DNA of 40,786 nucleotides from the NCBI GenBank assembly GCA_025356815.1, contig JANXQL010000127.1, positions 1-40,786 on the forward strand. The letters run 5' to 3'. The translations under genes and the position numbers were made by a program. Below are positions 3,943 through 39,574 of the stretch, piece after piece. The stretch's first letter is position 1, and each line of letters starts with the position of its first letter. This stretch comes from Pseudomonadota bacterium. GTDB taxonomy: Bacteria; Pseudomonadota; Gammaproteobacteria; Steroidobacterales; Steroidobacteraceae. Below the pieces are notes generated by a model. The model saw nothing but the letters and a program-made list of their open reading frames with translations, was not told where the DNA came from and did no database searches.

Positions 3943-4010
3943 GTTAGCCGAACCCCTGCCGCCCGTGTCAATTGCCATTGCTTGACACGCGCGGACCCGC
4001 TCGGCACGAT
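3943..4010. promoter_or_regulatory. Divergent promoters sharing a TTGACAC inverted repeat
   Basis: GTGTCAA (3965-3971) and TTGACAC (3982-3988) form a perfect 7-bp inverted repeat with a 10-nt centre. Each arm contains a consensus -35 hexamer, pointing outward. Plus strand: TTGACA 3982-3987, 17-nt spacer, CACGAT 4005-4010, which would start the riboswitch-btuB transcript near 4017. Minus strand: TTGACA 3971-3966, 17-nt spacer, GCTAAC 3948-3943, which would start hisN near 3936. Each -10 matches the sigma-70 consensus at only three positions. The symmetry could also be an operator. Promoter roles are inferred from sequence. Confidence 0.5.
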
Positions 4011-4017
4011 GCCGGCC

Positions 4018-4262
4018 GTCAGGTGACCCTGCGGCGCTCGCGCGCCAAGGGATGAAACGGGAAGTCGGTGAAACGCGCGTGCCCTGCACGGCATCATTCC
4101 GACACTGCCCCCGCAACGGTAGCCGAGTACAGGATCCGTCAGCCGCGCCCCGCGCGGCGGCCACTGCGAAAGCCGGGAAACCCCGGTGGACGTGGGAAGG
4201 CGACGGAACCTGACAGTCCGCAAGGACTGTCGACTCGGGAGTCCGGAGACCGGCCTGGCGAT
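4018..4262 (+). promoter_or_regulatory. Cobalamin (adenosylcobalamin) riboswitch
   Basis: Structured leader upstream of btuB. Conserved pieces occur in the right order: GGGAAGTCGGTGAAA (4059-4073), CTGCCCCCGCAACGGTA (4105-4121), GCCACTG of the B12 box near 4160, GGAAGGCG (4195-4202), and the 3' signature CTCGGGAGTCCGGAGACCGG followed by CCTGG (4234-4258). A long variable P6-like stem (GACAGTCC/GGACTGTC) lies near 4212-4231. The boundaries are set by motif content and are approximate. The downstream genes, a B12 receptor and a B12 adenosyltransferase, fit ligand-dependent repression. About 120 nt separate the aptamer from the btuB start; this stretch would be the expression platform. Confidence 0.93.
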
Positions 4263-4352
4263 CGTTCCCGCTGCACGGAGGGTGCAGGCGTGCCGGTTGC
4301 CGTTCTCGGCATCGGTCCGTCTTCCTTCAGCGCACGGGCAGTCCAGCCAATT

Positions 4353-4375
4353 CCATGCGGGCGAGCATGGAGGAG
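4353..4375 (+). promoter_or_regulatory. Hairpin beside the btuB Shine-Dalgarno
   Basis: CCATGC (4353-4358) and GCATGG (4365-4370) form a 6-bp stem immediately followed by the AGGAG ribosome site (4371-4375), 8 nt before the ATG at 4384. Its position at the end of the riboswitch leader suggests it belongs to the expression platform and affects ribosome access. That role is inferred. Confidence 0.4.
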
Positions 4376-4383
4376 ACCTGTCA

Positions 4384-6246
4384 ATGCGCTTCACCGCGTC
4401 CGGATTCCTGTCCCTTTCCCTACTGTCACTGGCGTCGTTCGGCGCCCTGGCTGCCCCCCTGTCGAGCGATGCCGGCGATGTCGGCGACGACCCGCACCTG
4501 CGTCCCGACCAGCGCGTCGTGGTGACCGCGAGCCGCGAGGCCGAAACCGCCTTCGAGGCGCTCGCCCCGGTCATCTACATCGACCGCAACGAGATCGAGC
4601 GCTCGCTCGCCCCCGACGTCGGCGACCTGCTGCGCTTCCATGCCGGCATCGACATTGCGCAGGTCGGCGGCCCCGGCCAGACCACGACCGCGTTCATTCG
4701 CGGCGCGAACTCGAACCACACCCTGACGCTGGTCGACGGCGTGCGCATCAACCCCGGTACGCTCGGGGTCGCGGCGCTGCACAACATCGCCCCGGAACTC
4801 GTCGACCACATCGAGGTGGTCAAGGGGCCGCGCTCGTCGCTGTACGGCACCGACGCGATCGGCGGGGTGATCAACATCATCACCCGCGCCGGCGACGTGA
4901 ACCGCCTCGACGCCATGATCGGCGGCGGCCGCTGGGACACGCGCGAGGCGGCTGCGAGCGGGGTGCTCGCAGGCGCTGCCGGTTCGCTGTCCTTCGGCGC
5001 GAACCTGCTGCAGACGGCGGGCTTTCCGACGCTCGCAAGCCAGACCCAGGACAGCGGCTATCGAAACGGTTCGGCCACCGTCGCCGGCCGCACGACCATC
5101 GGCGGCGTGGAGCTGGGCGCGCGTGCCTGGCGCGCCTCGGGCAACCAGCAGTACGCCGGCTACGATGCGGACTTCGCACTCGTGCCGCTCGACCAGGACT
5201 ACGTCAACTCTTCGTTCGCGGTCGATGCGGCGGGCCAGGTCGCCTCGCGCTGGCACACCAAGGGCGTCGCCTCGCACGTCGTCGACGACATCCGCCAGAA
5301 GCAGTCGCCGGACTACGCGATCACCCACCGCAACACGCTCGACTGGCAGAACGACATCGACGCCGGCGTGCAGCGATTCACGGTCGGCGGCCTGGTCGCG
5401 CGCGAGAACACCCGTGCGCTGTCGTTCGGCACGCAGTTCAACATCGATACGAACTCGCAGACCTGGTACGCGGAGGACCACGTGACGCTCGGCCAGCACC
5501 GGCTGCTCGGCGCGGTCGGCTTCACGCATCACTCGACCTTCGGCGACCATGCGACCTGGAACGCAGAGTACGGCTACGCGACCTCGGCGGACACCCTGCT
5601 CACCGTGGGCGCGGGCACGGGCTTTCGGGCCCCGGACAGTACCGACCGCTTCGGCTACGGCGGCAACCCGCAGCTCAAGCCCGAGCAGGCCCGCAATCTC
5701 GAGGTCGGCATTCGTCATCGCATCAGCGCCCACGAGAGCGTGGCGCTGACCGCGTTCGACAACGACATCACCAACCTGATCGCGTTCCAGTTCGCGCCGA
5801 CGCCCACCGATCCGTATGCGGGGCAGAACCAGAACATCGGCCGGGCGCGGATCCGCGGCATCGAGGCGAGCTGGGACTACGCCTCGGAGCTCTGGAGCGG
5901 CCACCTCGAGCTCAGTCGCCAGGATCCGGTCAACCGCGACGACGGCACGCGGCTGTTGCGTCGCTCGCGGCTGTCGGGCGCCGCCTCGCTGACGCGCCGC
6001 CTGGGACGGCAGGAGGCGGGCCTCGACCTGCTCGCCAGCGGCAGCCGAGAGGACTACGGTTACCCGTCGAACGTGCAGCTCGGGGGCTACATGCTGGTGA
6101 ATGCGTCCTGGCGCACGCCGCTGGTCGGCGGCCTGAAGCTGCAGATCCGGGTGGAAAACCTGCTCGACAAGCGCTACGAATACGCCAGCGGCTACAACAC
6201 CATGCGTCGCGCGGTGTCGGCGGCGCTGCGATACTCCTTCCTGTGA
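4384..6246 (+). CDS. btuB: TonB-dependent outer membrane vitamin B12 receptor
   Basis: Outer membrane beta-barrel importer of cobalamin, energised by TonB-ExbBD; 620 residues, close to E. coli BtuB (614). A signal peptide ends around ALAA (21-24). A TonB box, QRVVVTASR (43-51), follows. The plug domain contains TTAFIRGANSNHTLTLVDGV (101-120) and VKGPRSSLYGTDAIGGVINI (146-165). The barrel includes GAGTGFRAPDSTDRFGYGG and a C-terminal VENLLDKRYEYASGYN plus aromatic RYSF near the end. The final residue is Leu after YSF, whereas barrels usually end in Phe. The start is supported by GGAGGAG 8 nt upstream. Control by the cobalamin riboswitch and the downstream adenosyltransferase gene, 28 nt away, make B12 the likely ligand. 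Confidence 0.94.
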   Translation: MRFTASGFLSLSLLSLASFGALAAPLSSDAGDVGDDPHLRPDQRVVVTASREAETAFEALAPVIYIDRNEIERSLAPDVGDLLRFHAGIDIAQVGGPGQTTTAFIRGANSNHTLTLVDGVRINPGTLGVAALHNIAPELVDHIEVVKGPRSSLYGTDAIGGVINIITRAGDVNRLDAMIGGGRWDTREAAASGVLAGAAGSLSFGANLLQTAGFPTLASQTQDSGYRNGSATVAGRTTIGGVELGARAWRASGNQQYAGYDADFALVPLDQDYVNSSFAVDAAGQVASRWHTKGVASHVVDDIRQKQSPDYAITHRNTLDWQNDIDAGVQRFTVGGLVARENTRALSFGTQFNIDTNSQTWYAEDHVTLGQHRLLGAVGFTHHSTFGDHATWNAEYGYATSADTLLTVGAGTGFRAPDSTDRFGYGGNPQLKPEQARNLEVGIRHRISAHESVALTAFDNDITNLIAFQFAPTPTDPYAGQNQNIGRARIRGIEASWDYASELWSGHLELSRQDPVNRDDGTRLLRRSRLSGAASLTRRLGRQEAGLDLLASGSREDYGYPSNVQLGGYMLVNASWRTPLVGGLKLQIRVENLLDKRYEYASGYNTMRRAVSAALRYSFL

Positions 6247-6274
6247 CGACGGCCGTGCGCCGCGGAGATCCGTG

Positions 6275-6829
6275 ATGGGCAACAGATTGAGCAAGATCTA
6301 CACGCGCACGGGCGACGACGGCACCACTGGCCTGGGCGACGGCAGCCGTATCGACAAGGAGTCGCCGCGGGTCGAGGCCTACGGCACGGTGGACGAGGCC
6401 AACAGCGCGATCGGGGTGGTCCTCGCGGTGCCCGGACTGCCGGCGGCGATTGCCGCGACCCTCACCGAGGTGCAGCACGACCTGTTCGACCTGGGCGCGG
6501 AGCTGTGCATTCCCGGCCATCGCGTGGTGACCGAGGCGTACGCGACGCGCCTCGAACAGGCACTCGACGGTTTCAACGAGCACCTGCCGCCGCTGAAGGA
6601 GTTCATCCTGCCGGGCGGCGGGCCCCCCGCCGCCGCGTGTCACCTCGCCCGCACGATCACGCGCCGTGCAGAGCGGCGCGTCTGGTCGCTGGGACGGCTC
6701 GAACCGGTCGCACCGGAAGTGCCGCGCTACCTGAACCGGCTGTCGGACCTGTTGTTCGTGGTGGCGCGGGTGCTCGCCCGCCACGAGCGCGGCGATGATG
6801 TGCTGTGGACCCGCGGCCGGGGCAGCTGA
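6275..6829 (+). CDS. PduO-type cob(I)alamin adenosyltransferase
   Basis: Transfers the 5'-deoxyadenosyl group of ATP to cob(I)alamin, making coenzyme B12 in the cytoplasm. The 184-residue protein has the PduO/MMAB N-terminal ATP motif YTRTGDDGTTGLGDGSR (9-25), then VEAYGTVDEANSAIG and PGGGPPAAACHLARTITRRA with the conserved arginines. This distinguishes it from the CobA/BtuR type, which carries a Walker A. The ATG at 6275 has GGAG 7 nt upstream; a GTG directly before it (6272) is too close to that site. It lies 28 nt after btuB and probably shares the riboswitch-controlled transcript. PduO-type enzymes also salvage imported cobinamide or cobalamin, which fits the transport context. Confidence 0.94.
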   Translation: MGNRLSKIYTRTGDDGTTGLGDGSRIDKESPRVEAYGTVDEANSAIGVVLAVPGLPAAIAATLTEVQHDLFDLGAELCIPGHRVVTEAYATRLEQALDGFNEHLPPLKEFILPGGGPPAAACHLARTITRRAERRVWSLGRLEPVAPEVPRYLNRLSDLLFVVARVLARHERGDDVLWTRGRGS

Positions 6830-7448: not shown

Positions 7449-8024
7449 TCACCCTGAAGCCGCAACCCCTGCCGCCAGCCGGCCCCAGTCGAACGCGGGT
7501 CCGGGGTCGGTCTTGCGCCCGGGCGCAATGTCGCTGTGGCCGACCACGGCGTCCGCGGCCAGCGTCCCGTAGGCCCCTCGCAGCGCCTCCAGGACCGCGG
7601 CCAGTCGCTGGTACTGGGCCGGCTCGTAGGGCACCGCGTCGTCCCCCTCCAGCTCGATCCCGATCGAGAAGTCGTTGCAGGCGACCCGGTGGCGCCAGAC
7701 GGAGGCCCCGGCATGCCAGGCACGGGCGTGGAAGGGCACGAACTGGACGATCTCGCCGTCCCTGCGCAGGTAGAGGTGGCTCGACACCCGCAGCCCCTCG
7801 AGGGTGCGAAAGAACGGGTGGCGGTCCGGCGGCAGCGTGTTCAGGAACAGCCGCTCGACCCAGTCCTCGCCGAAGATACCCGGCGGCAGGCTGATGCCAT
7901 GGATCACGACCAGGTCCAGGCTCGCCCCCGGCGGCCGGGCGTCCTGGTTCGGCGACGGGACATACCGGGCCGGGCGCAGCAGCCCCTGACCGACATCGAC
8001 CTTGAAGGGGGAGACGGGCGGCAT
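7449..8024 (-). CDS. ampD: 1,6-anhydro-N-acetylmuramyl-L-alanine amidase
   Basis: Cytoplasmic zinc amidase that cleaves anhydro-muropeptides during peptidoglycan recycling. It has 191 residues, typical for AmpD (about 187), and no signal peptide, which separates it from the exported AmiD/AmpDh types. Motifs: LDLVVIHGISLPPGIFG with the first zinc His, HLYLRRDGEIVQFVPFHARA, WHAGASVWRHRVACNDFSIG, then VVGHSDIAPGRKTDPGPAFD with the second zinc His and the Asp ligand. AmpD normally acts with AmpG and AmpR; neither is in the window. The ATG at 8024 begins the family-like N-terminus, but no strong ribosome site is seen. It diverges from the bioA relic and rsmE. Confidence 0.95.
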   Translation of the reverse strand: MPPVSPFKVDVGQGLLRPARYVPSPNQDARPPGASLDLVVIHGISLPPGIFGEDWVERLFLNTLPPDRHPFFRTLEGLRVSSHLYLRRDGEIVQFVPFHARAWHAGASVWRHRVACNDFSIGIELEGDDAVPYEPAQYQRLAAVLEALRGAYGTLAADAVVGHSDIAPGRKTDPGPAFDWGRLAAGVAASG

Positions 8025-8092
8025 CGGCCGAGCTTAGCGCGCGAGCGGGCGGCGGGAAACCCGCGCGGTCGGTACACTGCGTCCCCAGTCCC

Positions 8093-8368
8093 ATGCCCTC
8101 GTCCGGTCCCTCCGCCAACGCCGACCTCGCGCGCCGCGACCCTGCGGTCGTGGGGCACCTGTGTGCCCAGACGAAGGACCGTGAGGCCGTGAACGGCGCG
8201 TTCTACGTCGACCCTCTTTGGCACACGGCGCTGCTGCACGCGCACGCCTGCCCGGGCAATGCGCCCGGTCGAGGCGCGTTGCTGCGCCTGATGCCACCGT
8301 ACGGGCGCGCGCCGGCCGACGCGAGCGTCGTGGTCATGGGCGAGTGCCCGGACGTCGCATGCGCCTGA
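8093..8368 (+). pseudogene. bioA: Eroded, in-frame internally deleted bioA relic (91 codons)
   Basis: An intact 91-codon frame ends 10 nt inside rsmE. Its product looks like three separated pieces of BioA (adenosylmethionine-8-amino-7-oxononanoate aminotransferase, about 430-470 residues). Residues 9-31 (ADLARRDPAVVGHLCAQTKD) resemble the N-terminal RD-AVVWHPCTQMKDHE block. Residues 33-64 (FYVDPLWHTALLHAHACPGN) resemble the FYDDYATLRAFLHSHTYTGN block. Residues 65-91 (LRLMPPYGRAPADASVV) resemble the C-terminal LPPY-ITPEQ block. The stretch between pieces 1 and 2, holding most of the active site including the PLP lysine, is gone. All pieces remain in one frame. A -10-like TACACT lies at 8073-8078. 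Matches are from memory of the family, not a search. BioA lies next to rsmE in Pseudomonas, which supports the call. A tiny functional leader peptide is the alternative. Confidence 0.65.
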
Positions 8369-9102
8369 CGCGCATCTATCTCGACCACCTGCCGGAGCCC
8401 GGCGCGCTGCTGCCGCTGCCGTCGCGTGCCGCGGTGCACCTGACGCGCGTGCTGCGACTGAAGGTGGGAGCTGCGATCGCGGTGTTCGACGGCGCCGGCC
8501 GCGAACACGACGCGACGCTCGAGACGCTGCGCGGCGAGTGCGTCGAGGTCCGCCTGGGTCCCGGCCGGCCGACCGCGGCGCCCTCGCCGCTGTCGATCAC
8601 CCTCGCGCAGGGTATCTCGCGCGGCGAGCGCATGGACTACGCGATCCAGAAAGCCACCGAACTCGGCGTGCGACGCATCGTGCCGCTGTTCTGCGGGCGC
8701 AGCGTGGTGAAGCTCGACGCCGGCCAGGCCGAGCGCAAGCTTGAGCACTGGCGCGGCGTCGCGATCTCCGCAGCCGAGCAGTGCGGACGCGCCGACCTCC
8801 CCGCGCTCGCCGCCCCGCGACGCCTTGCCGACCACCTGGCGTCGGCCCGCGACGCGGATCCCGCGGAGCTGCGGCTCGTGCTCGCGCCGCAGGCGGGCAT
8901 AAGCGCGCGCCAGCTGCCAGGCACGCCGACCGCGATCGAGATTCTCATCGGCCCCGAGGGCGGCCTCGGCGACGATGAACTTGCACTCGCGGCGCTCGCC
9001 GGCTACACCGGACTGCGACTCGGACCACGCGTGTTGCGCACCGAAACCGCCGCCGCGGCCGCGATCGCCGCGCTGCAGGCACTGCATGGAGATCTGGGAT
9101 GA
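8359..9102 (+). CDS. rsmE: 16S rRNA (uracil-1498-N3)-methyltransferase
   Basis: SAM-dependent SPOUT methyltransferase that makes m3U1498 in 16S rRNA; 247 residues, normal for RsmE. Motifs: N-terminal PUA-like segment AAVHLTRVLRLKVG and VFDGAGREHDATL; then QGISRGERMDYAIQKATELG, IVPLFCGRSVVKL, ISAAEQCGRADLP, and the knot loops LIGPEGGLGDDELALAA and LRLGPRVLRTETAAAAAIAAL. The ATG at 8359 overlaps the last 10 nt of the bioA-like frame, so translation is probably coupled to it. Its stop overlaps the mrcB start as ATGA. The three genes after the relic (rsmE, mrcB, TPR lipoprotein) are all overlapping and form one operon. Confidence 0.96.
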   Translation: MRLTRIYLDHLPEPGALLPLPSRAAVHLTRVLRLKVGAAIAVFDGAGREHDATLETLRGECVEVRLGPGRPTAAPSPLSITLAQGISRGERMDYAIQKATELGVRRIVPLFCGRSVVKLDAGQAERKLEHWRGVAISAAEQCGRADLPALAAPRRLADHLASARDADPAELRLVLAPQAGISARQLPGTPTAIEILIGPEGGLGDDELALAALAGYTGLRLGPRVLRTETAAAAAIAALQALHGDLG

Positions 9103-11405
9103 GTCGCATGAGGCTGCGCAGGCTGTCACGCCGGCTGCTGTGGATCGCAGGCGCCACCCTGCTGCTGCTGTGCGCGGCATTCGTCGCATGGGTGTACTAC
9201 CTCGACCAGGTGGTCACCAGCGAGTTCCGCGGTCGCCTCTGGTCGGTGCCGGCGCGCGTCTACGCCCAACCCATCGAGCTGTACGCGGGCGCCAACATCG
9301 GCAGCGAAGACCTCGAGCAGGAGCTGCGCCGGCTGCACTACCGCCCCGGCGATCCGGCCGCGGGACCCGGGCTGTACCGCCGCCGCGGCGGCGAGTTCGA
9401 CCTGAACGCGCGGCGCGTTCGCTTCGCCGACGAGCTGCGCGCGCCGGTGCGGGTGCGGGTGCGCACCGCAGTCGACGCCGTCACCGGCGTGAGCGCCGCG
9501 GACGGTAGCGAACTGCCGCTGTTCCGGCTCGATCCGCTGCTGGTCGGCAGCGTCTTCCCGGTGCATGGCGAGGATCGCATCGTGCTCGCCCCCGACGAAG
9601 TGCCGGCGCTGCTGCGCGGGGCGATCAAGACCATCGAGGACCGGCGCTTCGACGAGCACCACGGCGTCGACGTACGCAGCATCGCGCGCGCGGTATGGGC
9701 GAACCTGCGAGCAGGGCGCATCGCCCAGGGCGGCAGTACGCTGACCCAGCAGCTGGTCAAGAACTACTTCCTCAGCGACGAGCAGACCTTCGGACGCAAG
9801 GCGAAGGAAGCGGTGATGGCGCTGCGGCTGGAGGCCCGCTACACGAAGGAGGAGATCCTCGTCGCATACCTGAACGAGGTGTACCTCGGCCAGGACGGCG
9901 AGCGCGCGGTGCACGGCTTCGGCCTCGGCAGCGAATACTTCTTCGGCAAGCCGGTGGACGAGCTCGAGGTCGCCGAACTCGCGCTGCTCGTGGGACTGGT
10001 CAAGGGGCCCTCGTACTACGACCCGCACAAGCACCCTGACCGTGCGCGGATGCGCCGCAACCTCGTCCTCAAGGAGCTCGCCGACGAGCATGTCATCGAG
10101 GCCTCCACAGCCGCTCTGGCCTCGGCCCAGCCGCTCGGTCTGCGCACCACCGTCGGCGGCTACGTGCCGGCGTTCCTCGACCTCGTTCGCCGTCACTTGA
10201 AGCGCGACTACGCCGAGGCGGACCTGTCGGAGGCGGGGCTGTCGATCTACACGACCCTCGACCCGCGTGCGCAGGCGGCTGCCGAGCGCTCGCTGACGCG
10301 CGAACTGAAGCGACTCGATGCCAGCTCGCGTGTGAAGAACGCACACCTCGAGGGCGCGGTCGTGATCGCGGAGCCGCAGAGCGGCGAGGTGGTCGCCGTG
10401 GTCGGTGGCCGCGAGATCGGCTCGGCTGGCTTCAATCGTGCGCTCGACGCGCATCGCCCGATCGGCTCGCTGGTCAAACCCGCCGTCTACCTCGCCGCGA
10501 TGGAGAGCGGTCGCTACACGGCCGCAACCCTGATCGAGGACGCGCCTCTATCGATCAAGCTCGGCGACGGCAGCCTGTGGGAACCGCAGAACTACACCCA
10601 TGAGGTGTTCGGCACGGTGCCGCTGGTGCGCGCGCTGTCCGAGTCGATGAACCTCGCGACCGTGCGGCTCGGGCTCGACGTCGGCCTCGACAAGGTCGCA
10701 GGCACGCTGCAGCGCCTGGGGCTCGAGAAGCGACCGGCGCTGAATCCGTCGCTGCTGCTCGGGGCTGTCGACCTCACGCCGCTCGAGGTCGTGCAGGTGT
10801 ACACGGCGCTCGCCAATGGCGGCTTCCAGGCGCGCCTGCGTTCGGTGCAGGTGGTCCTCGACGAACACGGCACGCCGCTCAAGAGCTTCAAGCTGGAGGT
10901 GACCCCGGCGGCCTCGCCCGCGGCCGTCTATCAGGTCGACCGGATGATGGCGCAGGTGACCGAGCGCGGCACCGGCCACGCCGTCGGCGCCCGTTTCGGC
11001 GGCCGCCTCGTGGTGCCGGCGAAGACCGGCACGTCCTCGGACCTGCGCGACAGCTGGTTCGCGGGCTTCACCGGCAACCATGTCGCCGTGGTCTGGGTGG
11101 GCTACGACGACAACCGGCCGACCGGGCTCACCGGCGCGATGGGAGCGCTGCCGATCTGGCTTGGCACGATGGTCGACCTCAGGCCCACCTCATGGCAGAT
11201 GGCGGCGCCAGCGGAGGTGGAGGACCGCTGGATCGAGTTCTCCAGTGGCCTTGAGACCCGCCCCGGCTGCAGCCCGGACGCAGTCCCCGTGGCGGTGCCC
11301 AGAGGCACTACACTACCGGGACGCAGCGGCTGTGCGACGCCGTCATCGGACGCCCCGTCGGTCGTGGATAAAGTGAAGCAATGGCTACAAAAGACTTTGC
11401 ATTGA
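9099..11405 (+). CDS. mrcB: Penicillin-binding protein 1B, bifunctional glycosyltransferase/transpeptidase
   Basis: Inner membrane class A PBP that polymerises and cross-links peptidoglycan; 768 residues. One transmembrane helix lies at about 12-34. A UB2H-like domain runs from about 50 to 140 (SVPARVYAQPIELY, YRRRGGEFDLNARRVRF), which marks the PBP1B rather than PBP1A type. The GT51 domain has catalytic Glu180 in EDRRFDEHHGVD, then GGSTLTQQLVKNYFL and LNEVYLGQDG. The transpeptidase has SxxK at GSLVKP (Ser457), SMN in ALSESMNLATV, and KTGTS with Lys642. The start codon overlaps the rsmE stop (ATGA). The C-terminus overlaps the next gene by 25 nt. The partner lipoprotein LpoB is not obvious here, although a lipoprotein gene follows. 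Confidence 0.97.
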   Translation: MSRMRLRRLSRRLLWIAGATLLLLCAAFVAWVYYLDQVVTSEFRGRLWSVPARVYAQPIELYAGANIGSEDLEQELRRLHYRPGDPAAGPGLYRRRGGEFDLNARRVRFADELRAPVRVRVRTAVDAVTGVSAADGSELPLFRLDPLLVGSVFPVHGEDRIVLAPDEVPALLRGAIKTIEDRRFDEHHGVDVRSIARAVWANLRAGRIAQGGSTLTQQLVKNYFLSDEQTFGRKAKEAVMALRLEARYTKEEILVAYLNEVYLGQDGERAVHGFGLGSEYFFGKPVDELEVAELALLVGLVKGPSYYDPHKHPDRARMRRNLVLKELADEHVIEASTAALASAQPLGLRTTVGGYVPAFLDLVRRHLKRDYAEADLSEAGLSIYTTLDPRAQAAAERSLTRELKRLDASSRVKNAHLEGAVVIAEPQSGEVVAVVGGREIGSAGFNRALDAHRPIGSLVKPAVYLAAMESGRYTAATLIEDAPLSIKLGDGSLWEPQNYTHEVFGTVPLVRALSESMNLATVRLGLDVGLDKVAGTLQRLGLEKRPALNPSLLLGAVDLTPLEVVQVYTALANGGFQARLRSVQVVLDEHGTPLKSFKLEVTPAASPAAVYQVDRMMAQVTERGTGHAVGARFGGRLVVPAKTGTSSDLRDSWFAGFTGNHVAVVWVGYDDNRPTGLTGAMGALPIWLGTMVDLRPTSWQMAAPAEVEDRWIEFSSGLETRPGCSPDAVPVAVPRGTTLPGRSGCATPSSDAPSVVDKVKQWLQKTLH

Positions 11406-26873: not shown

Positions 26874-28007
26874 TCAGCTGAAGTTGATGCGAGCCTCGAG
26901 GTTGGTGCGCGAGTCGGCGTTCGCGAGCGCCTCCTCCATCTCGATCTTGCCCGCCTTGACCAGCGCATAGAGCGCCGCGTCGAAGTTCTGCATGCCGCGC
27001 TCAGTCGTATTCCTGAGCGCTTCCTTTACGCCCAGCACGTCGCCCTTCTTGATCAGCTCCTGGATGTGCGGCGTGTTCAGCAGCACCTCGACCGCGGCGA
27101 CGCGGCGGTTGTCCTTGGAGCGCACCAGCCGCTGCGACATGATCGCGCGCAGGTATTGCGAAAGGTCGAGGAAGATCTGCGCGTGCTGGTCGCGCGTGAA
27201 CATGTTGATGACCCGGTCGAGCGTCTCCGCCGAGTTGTTGGCGTGCAGGGTCGCGATACACAGGTGGCCGGTTCCGGCAAGGGCGATCGCCGCCTCCATC
27301 GTCTCCCGGTCGCGGATCTCGCCGATCAGGATGACATCGGGCGCGGCACGCATGGCGCTGCGCAGGGCGCGGTGGAACGATTTCGTGTCGAGGCCGACCT
27401 CGCGCTGATTGACGATCGATTTCTTGTTCGCATGCAGGAATTCAATCGGGTCCTCGATCGTCAACACGTGGTCAGACGCGTTCTCGTTGCGGTAGTTGAT
27501 CATCGCCGCGAGCGTCGTCGATTTGCCGGCACCGGCCGCACCGACCATCAGGATCAGCCCGCGCTTGAGCATCGTCAGGTCTTTGAGCACCTCCGGCATG
27601 CCCAGTGCCTCGAGGCGCGGCATGTCCGCAGTGATGTAGCGCAGCACGATCGCGGGATAGCCGCGCTGGTGGAAGACGTTGACGCGAAAGCGTCCGAGGC
27701 CGGGCTCAGAGATCGCGAAGTCAATCTCCAGCTCCTCCTCGAAGTACTCGATCTGCTCAGCGTTCATCAACCCGTAGGCGGCCTGCTTGACCATCTCCGG
27801 CGACAGGATCTGCTTATTGACCGGGTGGATCTGGCCCTCGATCTTGATCTTGACCGGTGCATAGGAGGTGAAGAAGAGGTCCGACGCCTTCTTTTCCACC
27901 ATCAGCTTGAACAGCGGCTTGGTGTTGAGCCTTGGTGAGCCCGTCTCGACGGCCATCTCCGTCGCGGCGAGCTCGCCAGGCTCAGTAGTTTTGGCCTTCA
28001 GATTCAT
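26874..28007 (-). CDS. Third PilT/PilU-family pilus ATPase (PilU-like)
   Basis: Secretion-superfamily hexameric ATPase, 377 residues, most like PilU. N-terminal domain: LFKLMVEKKASDLFFTSYAP (about 32-51). Walker A GAAGAGKST (the usual GPTGSGKST has several substitutions but the GxxGxGK[ST] core is intact), Asp box VLTIEDPIEF, Walker B PDVILIGEIRDRETM, and His box TGHLCIATLHANNSAETLDR. It overlaps the preceding pilU by 26 nt. Long internal similarity to the two upstream ATPases shows a tandem family. PilU homologues assist PilT in high-force retraction but need PilT themselves. A distinct helper role for this copy is inferred. An N-terminal extension of about 30 residues precedes the conserved domain. 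Confidence 0.92.
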   Translation of the reverse strand: MNLKAKTTEPGELAATEMAVETGSPRLNTKPLFKLMVEKKASDLFFTSYAPVKIKIEGQIHPVNKQILSPEMVKQAAYGLMNAEQIEYFEEELEIDFAISEPGLGRFRVNVFHQRGYPAIVLRYITADMPRLEALGMPEVLKDLTMLKRGLILMVGAAGAGKSTTLAAMINYRNENASDHVLTIEDPIEFLHANKKSIVNQREVGLDTKSFHRALRSAMRAAPDVILIGEIRDRETMEAAIALAGTGHLCIATLHANNSAETLDRVINMFTRDQHAQIFLDLSQYLRAIMSQRLVRSKDNRRVAAVEVLLNTPHIQELIKKGDVLGVKEALRNTTERGMQNFDAALYALVKAGKIEMEEALANADSRTNLEARINFS

Positions 28008-29142
28008 CGACGATCCTCAGGCTGCTGGCCTGTTCGTGGCTCAGCTTGTCCTCGCGCTTGCTCTCAAGCTTGATCCGCAGCCGCAACTCGTTCTTCGAGT
28101 CGGCGTTGCGCAGCGCCTCCTCGTAGCTGATCTGGTTGCTCTCGTAAAGATCATACAGCGACTGGTCGAAGGTCTTCATGCCGATTCGGGTCGAACGGGC
28201 CATGACGTCCTTGATGGCGGACACATCGCCCTTGAAGATCAGGTCCGCGATCAGCGGCGAGTGAAGCATGATCTCCATCGCCGCGATGCGACCGCCGCCG
28301 GTCCCCTCACGCGGCACCAGCCGCTGCGAGATCAGGGCACGGATATTCAACGACAGGTCCATCAGCAGCTGCTCGCGCTTCTCCTCGGGGAAGAAGTTCA
28401 CGATGCGGTCCAGGGCCTGGTTGGCATTGTTGGCGTGCAGGGTGGCCAGCACCAGATGGCCCGTCTCAGCGAACTGGATGCCGTATTCCATGGTCTCGCG
28501 GTCGCGGATCTCGCCGATCAGGATCACGTCCGGCGCCTGGCGCAGGGTGTTCTTCAGCGCTGCCTGCCACGAATCGGTATCGACCCCGACCTCGCGGTGG
28601 GTGATGACGCAACCCTTGTGCTGGTGCACGTACTCGACCGGATCCTCGATCGTGACGATGTGTCCGTGGGTCTGCTCGTTACGATAGTCGAGCATGGCGG
28701 CGAGCGTGGTCGACTTACCCGAACCCGTGCCGCCGACAATGATGGCGAGCCCGCGCTTGGAAAGGGCGACGTCCTTGAGGATCAGCGGCAGGTCGAGGTC
28801 GACAAGCGTCGGGATCTTCGCGTTGATCGTGCGGATCACGCAGCCGGTGTGGCCCATCTGGATGAACGCGCTGGCGCGGAACCGGCCGATGCCCTGCGGG
28901 GCGATCGCGAACTGGCATTCCTTGGTGGCGTCGAAATCGCGTGACTGTTTGTCATTCATGATCGCGCGCGTCAGCGTCGAGCTCTGCTCGGGCGTCAGCG
29001 GCACGTTGGTCTGCGGACGAATCTCGCCGTCGATCTTGATCGCGGGCGGAAAGCCCGCCGTGATGAACAGGTCCGACCCCTTCCGCTCAACCATGCGGCG
29101 CAGGAGGTCCTGCATCAGCTTGATACCCTGATCGCGATCCAT
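27982..29142 (-). CDS. pilU: PilU, accessory pilus retraction ATPase
   Basis: A 386-residue PilT-dependent retraction ATPase. The sequence is close to P. aeruginosa PilU in layout: LLRRMVERKGSDLFITAGFP at the N-terminus, Walker A GGTGSGKSTT, IVTIEDPVEYVHQHKGCVIT, Walker B PDVILIGEIRDRETMEYG, and ETGHLVLATLHANNANQALD. The C-terminal extension past the ATPase domain (about 345-386, SYEEALRNADSKNELRLRIK) is typical of PilU and absent from PilT. It follows pilT after 35 nt and overlaps the third ATPase gene by 26 nt, so the three are one operon. Confidence 0.94.
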   Translation of the reverse strand: MDRDQGIKLMQDLLRRMVERKGSDLFITAGFPPAIKIDGEIRPQTNVPLTPEQSSTLTRAIMNDKQSRDFDATKECQFAIAPQGIGRFRASAFIQMGHTGCVIRTINAKIPTLVDLDLPLILKDVALSKRGLAIIVGGTGSGKSTTLAAMLDYRNEQTHGHIVTIEDPVEYVHQHKGCVITHREVGVDTDSWQAALKNTLRQAPDVILIGEIRDRETMEYGIQFAETGHLVLATLHANNANQALDRIVNFFPEEKREQLLMDLSLNIRALISQRLVPREGTGGGRIAAMEIMLHSPLIADLIFKGDVSAIKDVMARSTRIGMKTFDQSLYDLYESNQISYEEALRNADSKNELRLRIKLESKREDKLSHEQASSLRIVDESEGQNY

Positions 29143-29177
29143 ATTGTCGTCCCCGGGGCGAGCTCAGTGCCCGCGCC

Positions 29178-30218
29178 TCAGATCGAATCCTTGTTCTGCG
29201 CCTTGTAGCGCGCCTCTTCCTTCGCGACGATGCCCTTGGCAACCAGTTCCTGAAGGCACTGGTCGAGCGTCTGCATGCCGGAGGACTGGCCCGTCTGGAT
29301 GGACGAGTACATCTGCGCGATCTTGCCCTCGCGGATAAGGTTCCGGATGGCGGGCGTGCCGATCATGATCTCGTGGGCGGCGATGCGGCCACCACCGACG
29401 CGCTTGAGCAGCGTCTGGGAAATGACCGCTCGCAGGCTCTCGGACAGCATCGAGCGAACCATCTCCTTCTCGGCGGCCGGGAACACGTCGACGACGCGGT
29501 CGATCGTCTTGGCGGCGGAGCTGGTGTGCAGGGTGCCGAACACGAGGTGGCCGGTCTCGGCCGCCGTCAGCGCCAGGCGGATCGTTTCCAGGTCGCGCAT
29601 TTCGCCGACCAGGATGATGTCGGGATCCTCGCGCAGCGCCGAACGCAGCGCCTCGGTAAAGCCGAGCGTGTCGCGGTGGACTTCGCGCTGGTTGATCAGG
29701 CAGCGCTTGGACTCGTGCACGAACTCGATTGGATCCTCGATCGTGAGGATGTGGTCCGGCCGATTGTCGTTGCAGTGGTTGATCATCGCCGCAAGCGTGG
29801 TCGACTTGCCGGAGCCGGTCGGGCCGGTGACGAGCACCAGTCCGCGTGGCAGCATGCACAGGTCCTTGAACACCTTCGGCGTGTTCAGGTCCTCCAGCGA
29901 GAGCACCACCGACGGGATGTTGCGGAACACGGCGCCAGCGCCGCGGTTCTGGTTGAACGCATTGACGCGAAAGCGCGCGAGCTTCGGAATCTCGAACGAG
30001 AAGTCCGTTTCGAAGAACTCCTCGTAAGCCTTCCGCTGCTTGTCATTCATGATGTCGTACACCATGCTGTGCACTTCCTTGTGCGCCAGCGACGGCATGT
30101 TGATCCGCTTGACGTCACCGTCAACGCGAATCATCGGCGGCATCCCGGCGGACAGGTGCAGGTCCGACGCGTTGTTCTTGACCGCGAAGGCGAGCAGTTG
30201 GGCGATATCGACAGCCAT
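29178..30218 (-). CDS. pilT: PilT, type IV pilus retraction ATPase
   Basis: Main retraction motor at the inner membrane base of type IV pili; 346 residues, normal for PilT (about 344). Motifs: LLAFAVKNNASDLHLSAGMP, Walker A GPTGSGKSTTLAAM, HILTIEDPIEFVHESKRCLI, Walker B PDIILVGEMRDLETIRLAL, ETGHLVFGTLHTSSAAKTID, and the PilT-specific C-terminal AIRNLIREGKIAQMYS. GGGAGT lies just upstream of the ATG at 30218. It is first in a minus-strand operon with pilU and a third ATPase. It diverges from yggS, as in P. aeruginosa. Confidence 0.97.
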   Translation of the reverse strand: MAVDIAQLLAFAVKNNASDLHLSAGMPPMIRVDGDVKRINMPSLAHKEVHSMVYDIMNDKQRKAYEEFFETDFSFEIPKLARFRVNAFNQNRGAGAVFRNIPSVVLSLEDLNTPKVFKDLCMLPRGLVLVTGPTGSGKSTTLAAMINHCNDNRPDHILTIEDPIEFVHESKRCLINQREVHRDTLGFTEALRSALREDPDIILVGEMRDLETIRLALTAAETGHLVFGTLHTSSAAKTIDRVVDVFPAAEKEMVRSMLSESLRAVISQTLLKRVGGGRIAAHEIMIGTPAIRNLIREGKIAQMYSSIQTGQSSGMQTLDQCLQELVAKGIVAKEEARYKAQNKDSI

Positions 30219-38430: not shown

Positions 38431-39327
38431 TCAGCCGACCGCCGCTGGCCGTGGCGCGCGCACACCCAGCGCATGGCAGATCGCATACGGAATGTCCGCG
38501 CGATTGAGGGTGTACAGGTGGAACGCGTCCACGCCGTGTCGGCGCAGGTGATCGACCTGCTCGATCGCGACTGCGGCGCCGAGCAGTCGACGCGTCTCGA
38601 CATCTTCGTCCAGACCCTCGAAGCGCGCCTGGATCCAGCCGGGGATGGACGCGCCGCAGCGACGCGCGAAGCGACGTACCTGCGAGTAGCGCAGGATCGG
38701 CAGGATCCCAGGCACGAGCGGCACGGTGATGCCGGCGGCGACGCAGCGATCGCGAAAGCGCAGGAAGACATCATTGTCGAAGAAGAACTGCGTGATCGCG
38801 CGAGTCGCGCCGGCGTCGATCTTGCGTTTGAGGTTGTCCAGGTCGTTCGCCGCACTGCCGGCCTCCGGATGCACCTCGGGATAGGCAGCCACCGACAGCT
38901 CGAAGCGGGCCACCGATCGCAGCCCGCGGACCAGGTCGCTGCCCCAGGCATAGCCGTCGGCGAACGGTTCTCTGGCGCCGGCCGGCGCGTCGCTGCGCAG
39001 CGCGACGAGGTGGCGTACGCCCGCGTCCCAGTACTGACGCGCAACAGATTCGATCTCGCCGCTCGTTGCGCCGACCGCGGTCACGTGCGGTGCGACCTCA
39101 AGGCACGTCTCGGCACGCAGCCTGCGCACGACCTCGACCGTACGATCGCGGGTCGAGCCGTCCGCGCCATAGGTCACCCAGACGAAGCGTGGCGCGAGCG
39201 GCGCGAGCCGGCGCACCGACGCCCACAGCAGCGTCTCCATGTCCGGATCGGTGGGCGGGAAGAACTCGAACGACACCGCGACGGCGGCGGGGAGGGCGTT
39301 CGGGGTGGCGGCGGCAGCGACTTCCAT
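38431..39327 (-). CDS. metF: 5,10-methylenetetrahydrofolate reductase
   Basis: FAD-dependent TIM-barrel enzyme that makes 5-methyltetrahydrofolate for methionine synthesis; 298 residues, near E. coli MetF (296). Motifs: VSFEFFPPTDPDMETLLWAS at the N-terminus with the FEFFPP signature, RFVWVTYGADGSTRDRTVEV, VAPHVTAVG, HLVALRSDAP (FAD region), AAYPEVHPEA, and LKRKIDAGATRAITQFFFDN. The ATG at 39327 has AGGTGT 5 nt upstream and is preferred over a GTG ten codons earlier. No SAM or SAH riboswitch is recognised in the leader. A promoter candidate lies at 39437-39465. Confidence 0.97.
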   Translation of the reverse strand: MEVAAAATPNALPAAVAVSFEFFPPTDPDMETLLWASVRRLAPLAPRFVWVTYGADGSTRDRTVEVVRRLRAETCLEVAPHVTAVGATSGEIESVARQYWDAGVRHLVALRSDAPAGAREPFADGYAWGSDLVRGLRSVARFELSVAAYPEVHPEAGSAANDLDNLKRKIDAGATRAITQFFFDNDVFLRFRDRCVAAGITVPLVPGILPILRYSQVRRFARRCGASIPGWIQARFEGLDEDVETRRLLGAAVAIEQVDHLRRHGVDAFHLYTLNRADIPYAICHALGVRAPRPAAVG

Positions 39328-39436
39328 AGGACACCTGTGCACGTGAGACACGAGCACCGATGAATCGTGCAGCGTAGCGGGTGAACTTGCCGGGATGACG
39401 GTGGACGCTGGGCGCCCTCGATCGCTTTAGCCGGAT

Positions 39437-39465
39437 TTCTTACGCGCCCGCAAGCTGGTCTTCAA
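39437..39465 (-). promoter_or_regulatory. Candidate sigma-70 promoter upstream of metF
   Basis: On the minus strand TTGAAG (39465-39460) is separated by 17 nt from TAAGAA (39442-39437), matching four positions of each consensus hexamer. Transcription would start near 39430, about 100 nt before the metF ATG. The remaining sequence between 39358 and 39574 shows no convincing gene or further site. Confidence 0.4.
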
Positions 39466-39574
39466 ATCGGCGCGTCGCCAACATAGCCAGTGGACAGGCA
39501 GCCGGTCAATGGCCCGCAGCACGCATCGTCATTCGTTTTGGAAGGGTCGCTCTAACCGCGGACTCGACCGGGCT

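Follow-up and report, generated by a model that had tools for sequence, protein, structure and literature searches.

The 91-codon open reading frame at positions 8093-8368 of the window (by which we mean the whole stretch of 40,786 nucleotides that was analysed, from a contig of a Steroidobacteraceae genome) is best understood as a remnant of bioA; synteny, together with three collinear matches to the intact gene of a sister genome, supports this reading. We think that bioA was eroded here, and apparently repeatedly among the relatives, while selection probably kept the start codon, the frame and the stop codon that would hand ribosomes over to the next gene, rsmE. That the frame was kept by selection, probably for the sake of coupling, is suggested by four frame-neutral deletions in the window and by 16 of 22 leader-type loci in the family that end at the same overlap; to this extent, the proposal of the initial annotation that selection may keep the frame open for coupling has gained statistical support.

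The frame runs on the forward strand from ATG to TGA and occupies exactly 8093-8368. Its last 10 nt, ATGCGCCTGA (8359-8368, forward strand), contain both the start of rsmE and the stop of the leader, so that the stop overlaps the downstream start. The rsmE gene (8359-9102, forward strand, ATG at 8359) encodes a 16S rRNA methyltransferase, identified by PF04452 (1.1e-46), PF20260 (5.1e-8) and alignment, and is the presumed recipient of coupling from the leader. The coordinates, the 10-nt overlap and the identity of RsmE given in the initial annotation were all borne out. Next comes a penicillin-binding protein gene that we take from its sequence to be mrcB-like (9099-11405, forward strand, 4-nt overlap with rsmE), and the divergent neighbour on the other side is an amidase gene, presumably ampD-like (7449-8024, reverse strand). 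Upstream of the leader lies a -10-like motif, TACACT (8073-8078, forward strand), within GGTACACT. A consensus scan of 7950-8700 returned no sigma-70 site, and close to none would be expected in shuffled sequence either, so we assign the -10 purely by its conservation.

General libraries were of little help in recognising the stub. The 91-residue protein matched no Pfam family, gave a single weak BioA match in NCBIfam (NF005443, 11.9 bits, E 0.058, residues 8-32) and, in the PDB, hit one unrelated, chance-like chain (E 0.33). Its homology was therefore settled from the nearest relatives. In the nearest genome, G005, which belongs to the same genus and whose RsmE is 80% identical to that of the window's genome (G000), an intact bioA stands directly upstream of rsmE, in the same place and with the same 10-nt overlap; it is an open frame of 472 amino acids scoring 563 bits against TIGR00508. 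The stub matches this BioA in three collinear pieces (stub residues 1-33, 73%, E 5.2e-8; 25-77, 42%, E 3.1e-4; 60-91, 63%, E 2.1e-4), and the DNA alignment of the two scores 307, as compared with a mean of 116 (sd 8, maximum 138) for 200 codon-shuffled copies. With the same neighbours on both sides of the comparison, these matches bear out the initial observation of three BioA-like blocks in the right order and in one frame. The ancestor of the stub is thus the gene for 7,8-diaminopelargonate aminotransferase (TIGR00508, NF005443), whose start and end codons it keeps. It is an enzyme no more: 1089 of the 1365 nt of the G005 gene are deleted, and the full-length match above 405 bits to TIGR00508 that we would ask of a functional BioA is absent. 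The deleted part presumably includes the PLP lysine region.

The initial annotation spoke of one internal, in-frame deletion. In-frame and internal they are, but the DNA alignment to G005 shows four: the stub equals the G005 bioA minus 822, net 240, 21 and 6 nt, all multiples of three, which together account for the whole difference in length, 1089 nt. Five blocks are left, all on the forward strand: codons 1-30 (8093-8180, 85% DNA identity to G005, right edge ambiguous by a few bases); codons 304-330, after the 822-nt deletion (8181-8259, 71%); codons 412-419, after the net 240-nt deletion (8266-8287, 77%); codons 427-436, after the 21-nt deletion (8288-8316, 76%); and the end of the gene, codons 438-455 with the stop, after the 6-nt deletion (8317-8368, 79%). 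With 30 equally good alignments, the junctions can be placed only to within a few bases, and the 6 nt at 8260-8265 that interrupt the 240-nt gap are of uncertain origin. One could suspect an assembly artefact, given that the window's genome is fragmented into 207 contigs. However, the blocks differ from G005 by many substitutions, the deletions are four separate ones, and analogous states occur in other genomes, so we regard such an artefact as very unlikely.

What became of biotin synthesis? The initial annotation left it moved, replaced or lost, and suggested a search of the genome for another bioA and for bioB and bioD. That search gave 17 matches of aminotransferase type to TIGR00508, none of them over the BioA cut-off, and no match to bioB or bioD at the limits used; the idea that bioA had simply moved elsewhere in this genome was rejected on these grounds. 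Since the genome is 95% complete, the absence of these genes is not absolute. Among the 15 genomes of the genus (83-99% complete), the same three, G002, G005 and G011, each have bioB, bioD and a bioA that passes the cut-off, and the other 12 have neither a bioA over the cut-off nor bioB or bioD at the limits used. This shared confinement is why biotin synthesis appears to have been lost, and not merely moved, in the window's genome and 11 other members of the genus. BioY was found in none of the 15 genomes, biotin ligase in 14. G011 is a separate case: at the old place of bioA it has a 23-codon leader, and its bioA is located elsewhere, near bioD and bioB on one contig (C69; L083, L133, L138). 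The BioA of G011 is 36-48% identical to the 21 other BioA sequences compared (42-45% to those of G005, G002 and G034), which suggests that biotin synthesis was reacquired, likely by transfer.

The same locus can be followed across the genus, where GGTACACT or a near form of it precedes the leader, bioA or rsmE. Behind this motif stands an intact bioA in G002 and G005 and an in-frame leader in nine genomes, of 91 codons in the window's genome, 37 in G008, 32 in G013, 28 in G001 and G004, 25 in G003 and 23 in G007, G010 and G011; in G006, G009 and G014 rsmE itself begins 6-7 nt behind the motif, and G012 has no rsmE match. BioA homology was tested on the window's stub and judged by eye for the leader of G008, and for the shorter leaders we infer an origin from bioA from their place, motif and overlap. 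In a tree of RsmE, MrcB and AmpD, G000 and G005 are sisters (98/97) and G008 branches next (100/99). The BioA tree, a quick one with long branches elsewhere, groups G005 with G002 (92) and both with G034 (99), and so suggests vertical inheritance; if the genes of G005 and G002 are indeed vertical, bioA would have been lost about six or seven times in the genus, the fork that decides between six and seven being poorly supported (39/13). The number would be smaller if G005 regained bioA at its old place. By eye, the leaders of G000 and G008 share a Leu to Pro change, and we asked whether this pointed to a single shared loss. As G005, with its intact bioA, is the sister of G000 (see above), we treat this change as possibly convergent.

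We also went through 217 genomes of the family. A bioA over the cut-off is present in 166, and 51 are without one at E 1e-125 (these 51 by elimination). Eight of the 51 have no rsmE match at 1e-30, which leaves 43; from these we left out G179 (contig edge, stop inside the match), G148 (cut by the contig end) and G074, G106, G129 and G133 (the 3' end of bioA cut by the contig end), leaving 37, and then added G011, G119 and G017, whose bioA over the cut-off lies elsewhere, to reach 40 loci. In G017, G182 and G205 no -10 could be assigned by motif, and they were set aside before counting, so that 37 loci without bioA upstream of rsmE and with an assigned -10 were counted. The -10 motifs were assigned by eye; at 13 of the 37 loci, nine of them among the 22 discussed below, the motif was chosen for the locus, and in G004, where two motifs are possible, the nearer was used, the first ATG being the same with either. 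In G182 the bioA has by appearance suffered a frame-shifting deletion, or else a misassembly; if real, it goes against the pattern.

The distance from motif to rsmE is 6-9 nt at 15 of these loci and at least 22 nt at the other 22. The 15 have a leaderless-like spacing, and 13 of them lack a stop at +7 of rsmE. An rsmE placed 6-9 nt behind a -10-like motif is seen in L241-L247 without L243, plus G028 (genus g15), and also in G006, G009, G014, G158, G160 and G166; at these leaderless-like loci RsmE lacks, at residues 3-4, the Leu-Thr whose codons supply the overlap stop in other genomes. Among the 22 leader-type loci, the frame opened by the first start codon ends at rsmE +7, with the same 10-nt overlap, in 16, seven of which are outside the genus (G022, G069, G092, G119, G128, G149 and G169). 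The start in question is the first ATG in 14 of the 16 and the first GTG, no ATG being present, in two (G022 and G169); in G013 the first ATG is preceded by an in-frame GTG. The leader start is 3-31 nt behind the motif in the 16; if this motif is indeed the -10, the 5' leader would be short. The remaining six loci are diverse. The leader stops at +1 (ATGA) in G208, at -3 in G123 (where another ATG, four bases further along, opens a frame ending at +7), at -8 in G130 and at -16, from a GTG start, in G121; the first ATG of G027 opens a frame that ends far upstream, at -93; and the leader region of G134 has no start codon, rsmE there having its own Shine-Dalgarno match. The leader region of G121 (L222) shows, by eye, a short tandem repeat.

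The initial annotation also allowed that the mini-protein may do something, and it is true that the frame is intact and that BioA motifs are still recognisable in it. A function of its own for the 91-residue product found no support and seems to us the least probable of the explanations considered. Over the 83 codons comparable between the stub and the G005 bioA there are 26 amino acid differences, of which 23 fall on the branch of G000, none on that of G005 and three could not be placed, as would be expected of a remnant whose protein has been released from purifying selection; among the codons that differ only synonymously, one change is on the G000 branch and eight are on the G005 branch. 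The pairwise dN/dS of G000 and G005 is 0.38 for the stub and bioA, as against 0.14 for rsmE and 0.09 for mrcB. A single-sequence structure model of the peptide has no confident fold (pLDDT 46.8). The leader peptides of the relatives vary in length (9-49 codons) and, by eye, in sequence, and the GC content at the second codon position is not lowered in the 16 leaders (0.73 versus 0.50 in rsmE), which makes it unlikely that the peptide matters. The stub peptide thus looks unconstrained, while its frame is kept.

It could of course be argued that a bioA pseudogene in a GC-rich genome, where stops are rare, stays open by chance. Long open frames come easily at high GC, that of the stub stays open for a further 29 codons upstream of its ATG, and the peptide is unconstrained. 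We nevertheless find this explanation improbable. If every frame were equally likely, four deletions out of four being multiples of three would have a probability of 1 in 81, or of 1 in 27 once it is granted that the whole is in frame, and the position of the leader stops in the family is a measure that hangs on frame, beyond the mere rarity of stops. As a null model, deletions were placed at random in 12 intact bioA genes and the leaders given the observed lengths (60,000 draws): 33% of the simulated frames ended at +7, 10.5% near rsmE (-20 to +6) and 17% upstream, 25% were fused to rsmE and 14% overran its start. The +7 stop follows in part from RsmE's own Met-Arg-Leu-Thr start. Against this 33%, 16 of 22 gives a P of about 1.6e-4. 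Shared ancestry makes the real number of events lower: with presumed independent lineages, counted from a reading of genus labels and the tree and not from a formal reconstruction, 13 of 19 end at +7 (P 0.0017), and the six leader lineages of the genus alone give P 0.0013. With one entry per genus and outcome the count falls to 6 of 9 and the excess is marginal (P 0.04), a point in favour of chance. On the whole, frame and overlap are conserved in the family while sequence and length change, as would be expected of a coupled leader, with the reservation that the excess is marginal per genus and outcome.

The main rival to coupling is, in our opinion, a different one, namely avoidance: any leftover frame would have to stop at or before rsmE, since otherwise it would be fused to the protein or would block its start, and no handing over of ribosomes would be needed. 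Counting the first start only (in G000, G001, G004, G008, G092, G128 and G149 later starts do open frames that overrun the start of rsmE), no leader-type locus among the 22 is fused to rsmE in frame and none overruns its start out of frame, although 25% and 14% of the simulated deletions do, which speaks for coupling but also for avoidance; the four leaders ending elsewhere near the start (+1, -3, -8 and -16) are a further point for avoidance. But avoidance would also accept stops far upstream, the fate of 17% of the simulated deletions, or the loss of the leader start, and these are represented by one locus each (G027 and G134), as against the 16 that end precisely at +7; nor does avoidance by itself explain why a start codon is kept close behind the -10. 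The exact excess at +7 and the kept start codon favour coupling, and we consider avoidance unlikely, if less so than the other alternatives.

The initiation signals of rsmE are less telling. A Shine-Dalgarno match weaker than -5 kcal/mol is found at 13 of 16 leader loci and at 8 of 12 loci with bioA, so leader loci are not clearly set apart in this respect, and because the matches in G008, G010 and G069 are fair ones (-6.6 to -9.5), rsmE need not depend on coupling there. An attenuator leader peptide is not indicated: between 7950 and 8700 a simple scan gave no terminator-like site (0.1 expected) and Rfam no match, and the peptides differ by eye.

From these data we infer a transcription start, translation of the leader and its coupling to rsmE, and the scenario that we favour would be as follows. 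Formerly, bioA and rsmE would have overlapped as two genes of one operon, with ribosomes coming from bioA doing at least part of the translation of rsmE. Once biotin synthesis was lost, bioA would decay by deletions, and mainly those would be retained that keep its start codon, its frame and its stop inside the start region of rsmE. The outcome would be a leader ORF (91 codons here, shorter in the relatives) whose peptide is irrelevant; its translation would end 7 nt into rsmE, and the ribosome would then either step back and reinitiate at rsmE or open its start site. In an alternative end state, bioA would be wholly deleted and rsmE set straight behind the promoter.

The window contains three other features that we mention for completeness. 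A Cobalamin riboswitch (RF00174, 68 bits; 4004-4272, forward strand) lies upstream of an ORF within 4186-6246 and of another at 6272-6829, which we take to be TonB-receptor-like and cobalamin-adenosyltransferase-like, respectively. A SAM_alpha riboswitch (RF00521, 41 bits, gathering threshold 36; 39406-39483, reverse strand) lies just upstream of a presumably MetF-like ORF (38431-39357, reverse strand); this family is named for alphaproteobacteria, and the host genome looks gammaproteobacterial. Finally, three consecutive ATPase ORFs (26874-30218, reverse strand) are, as we would name them from their sequence, PilT/PilU-like.

Part of the proposed system is already known. Overlapping pairs coupled by termination-reinitiation, as presented in two papers (PMC10666635, PMC12548453), resemble the stub in that the first ORF ends where it overlaps the start of the second, and short upstream pieces suffice in E. 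coli reporters of such pairs (same sources); the difference is that here the upstream gene is dead with its frame kept, and that the overlap is 10 nt, where 4 or 1 is usual. According to one of them, a review (PMC12548453), overlaps of more than 4 nt couple less well, so that the 10 nt of the stub count against coupling. That review also notes that delivering ribosomes may be the sole role of a short ORF, and its ribosome-delivering uORFs and MIRU insertions in mycobacteria share with the stub a short ORF, an unneeded peptide and a stop at the start of the main gene (PMC12548453); those arose by insertion of a mobile repeat or are of unknown origin, whereas the present leader would come from an enzyme gene that was eroded where it stood, something that apparently happened several times. 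Coupled gene pairs and short ribosome-delivering ORFs are therefore not new; a coupled leader ORF born by gene erosion would be. In a literature search of titles and the starts of abstracts, covering few subscription papers, we found no description of an enzyme gene eroded in place to a coupled leader, and nothing on this locus appeared by title among papers on rsmE with bioA or biotin, or on Steroidobacteraceae with biotin.

For the family as a whole, we hold by a narrow margin that the loss of biotin synthesis has, time and again, left bioA as a translated leader of rsmE, 9-91 codons long, with start, frame and stop kept and an irrelevant peptide; a leaderless rsmE would be the other stable end. 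If true, this would describe a general way in which coupled leader ORFs come about, and would offer an origin for short leader ORFs. It would also be a natural experiment. The usual arguments for translational coupling come from reporters or from overlap statistics; an upstream protein that has become irrelevant, with its frame kept, allows selection on coupling to be told apart from that on the protein or on gene order, and would show the former acting independently of the upstream protein. For annotators, it would mean that a small unconserved ORF preceding a conserved gene can be a functional relic of an enzyme that was lost.
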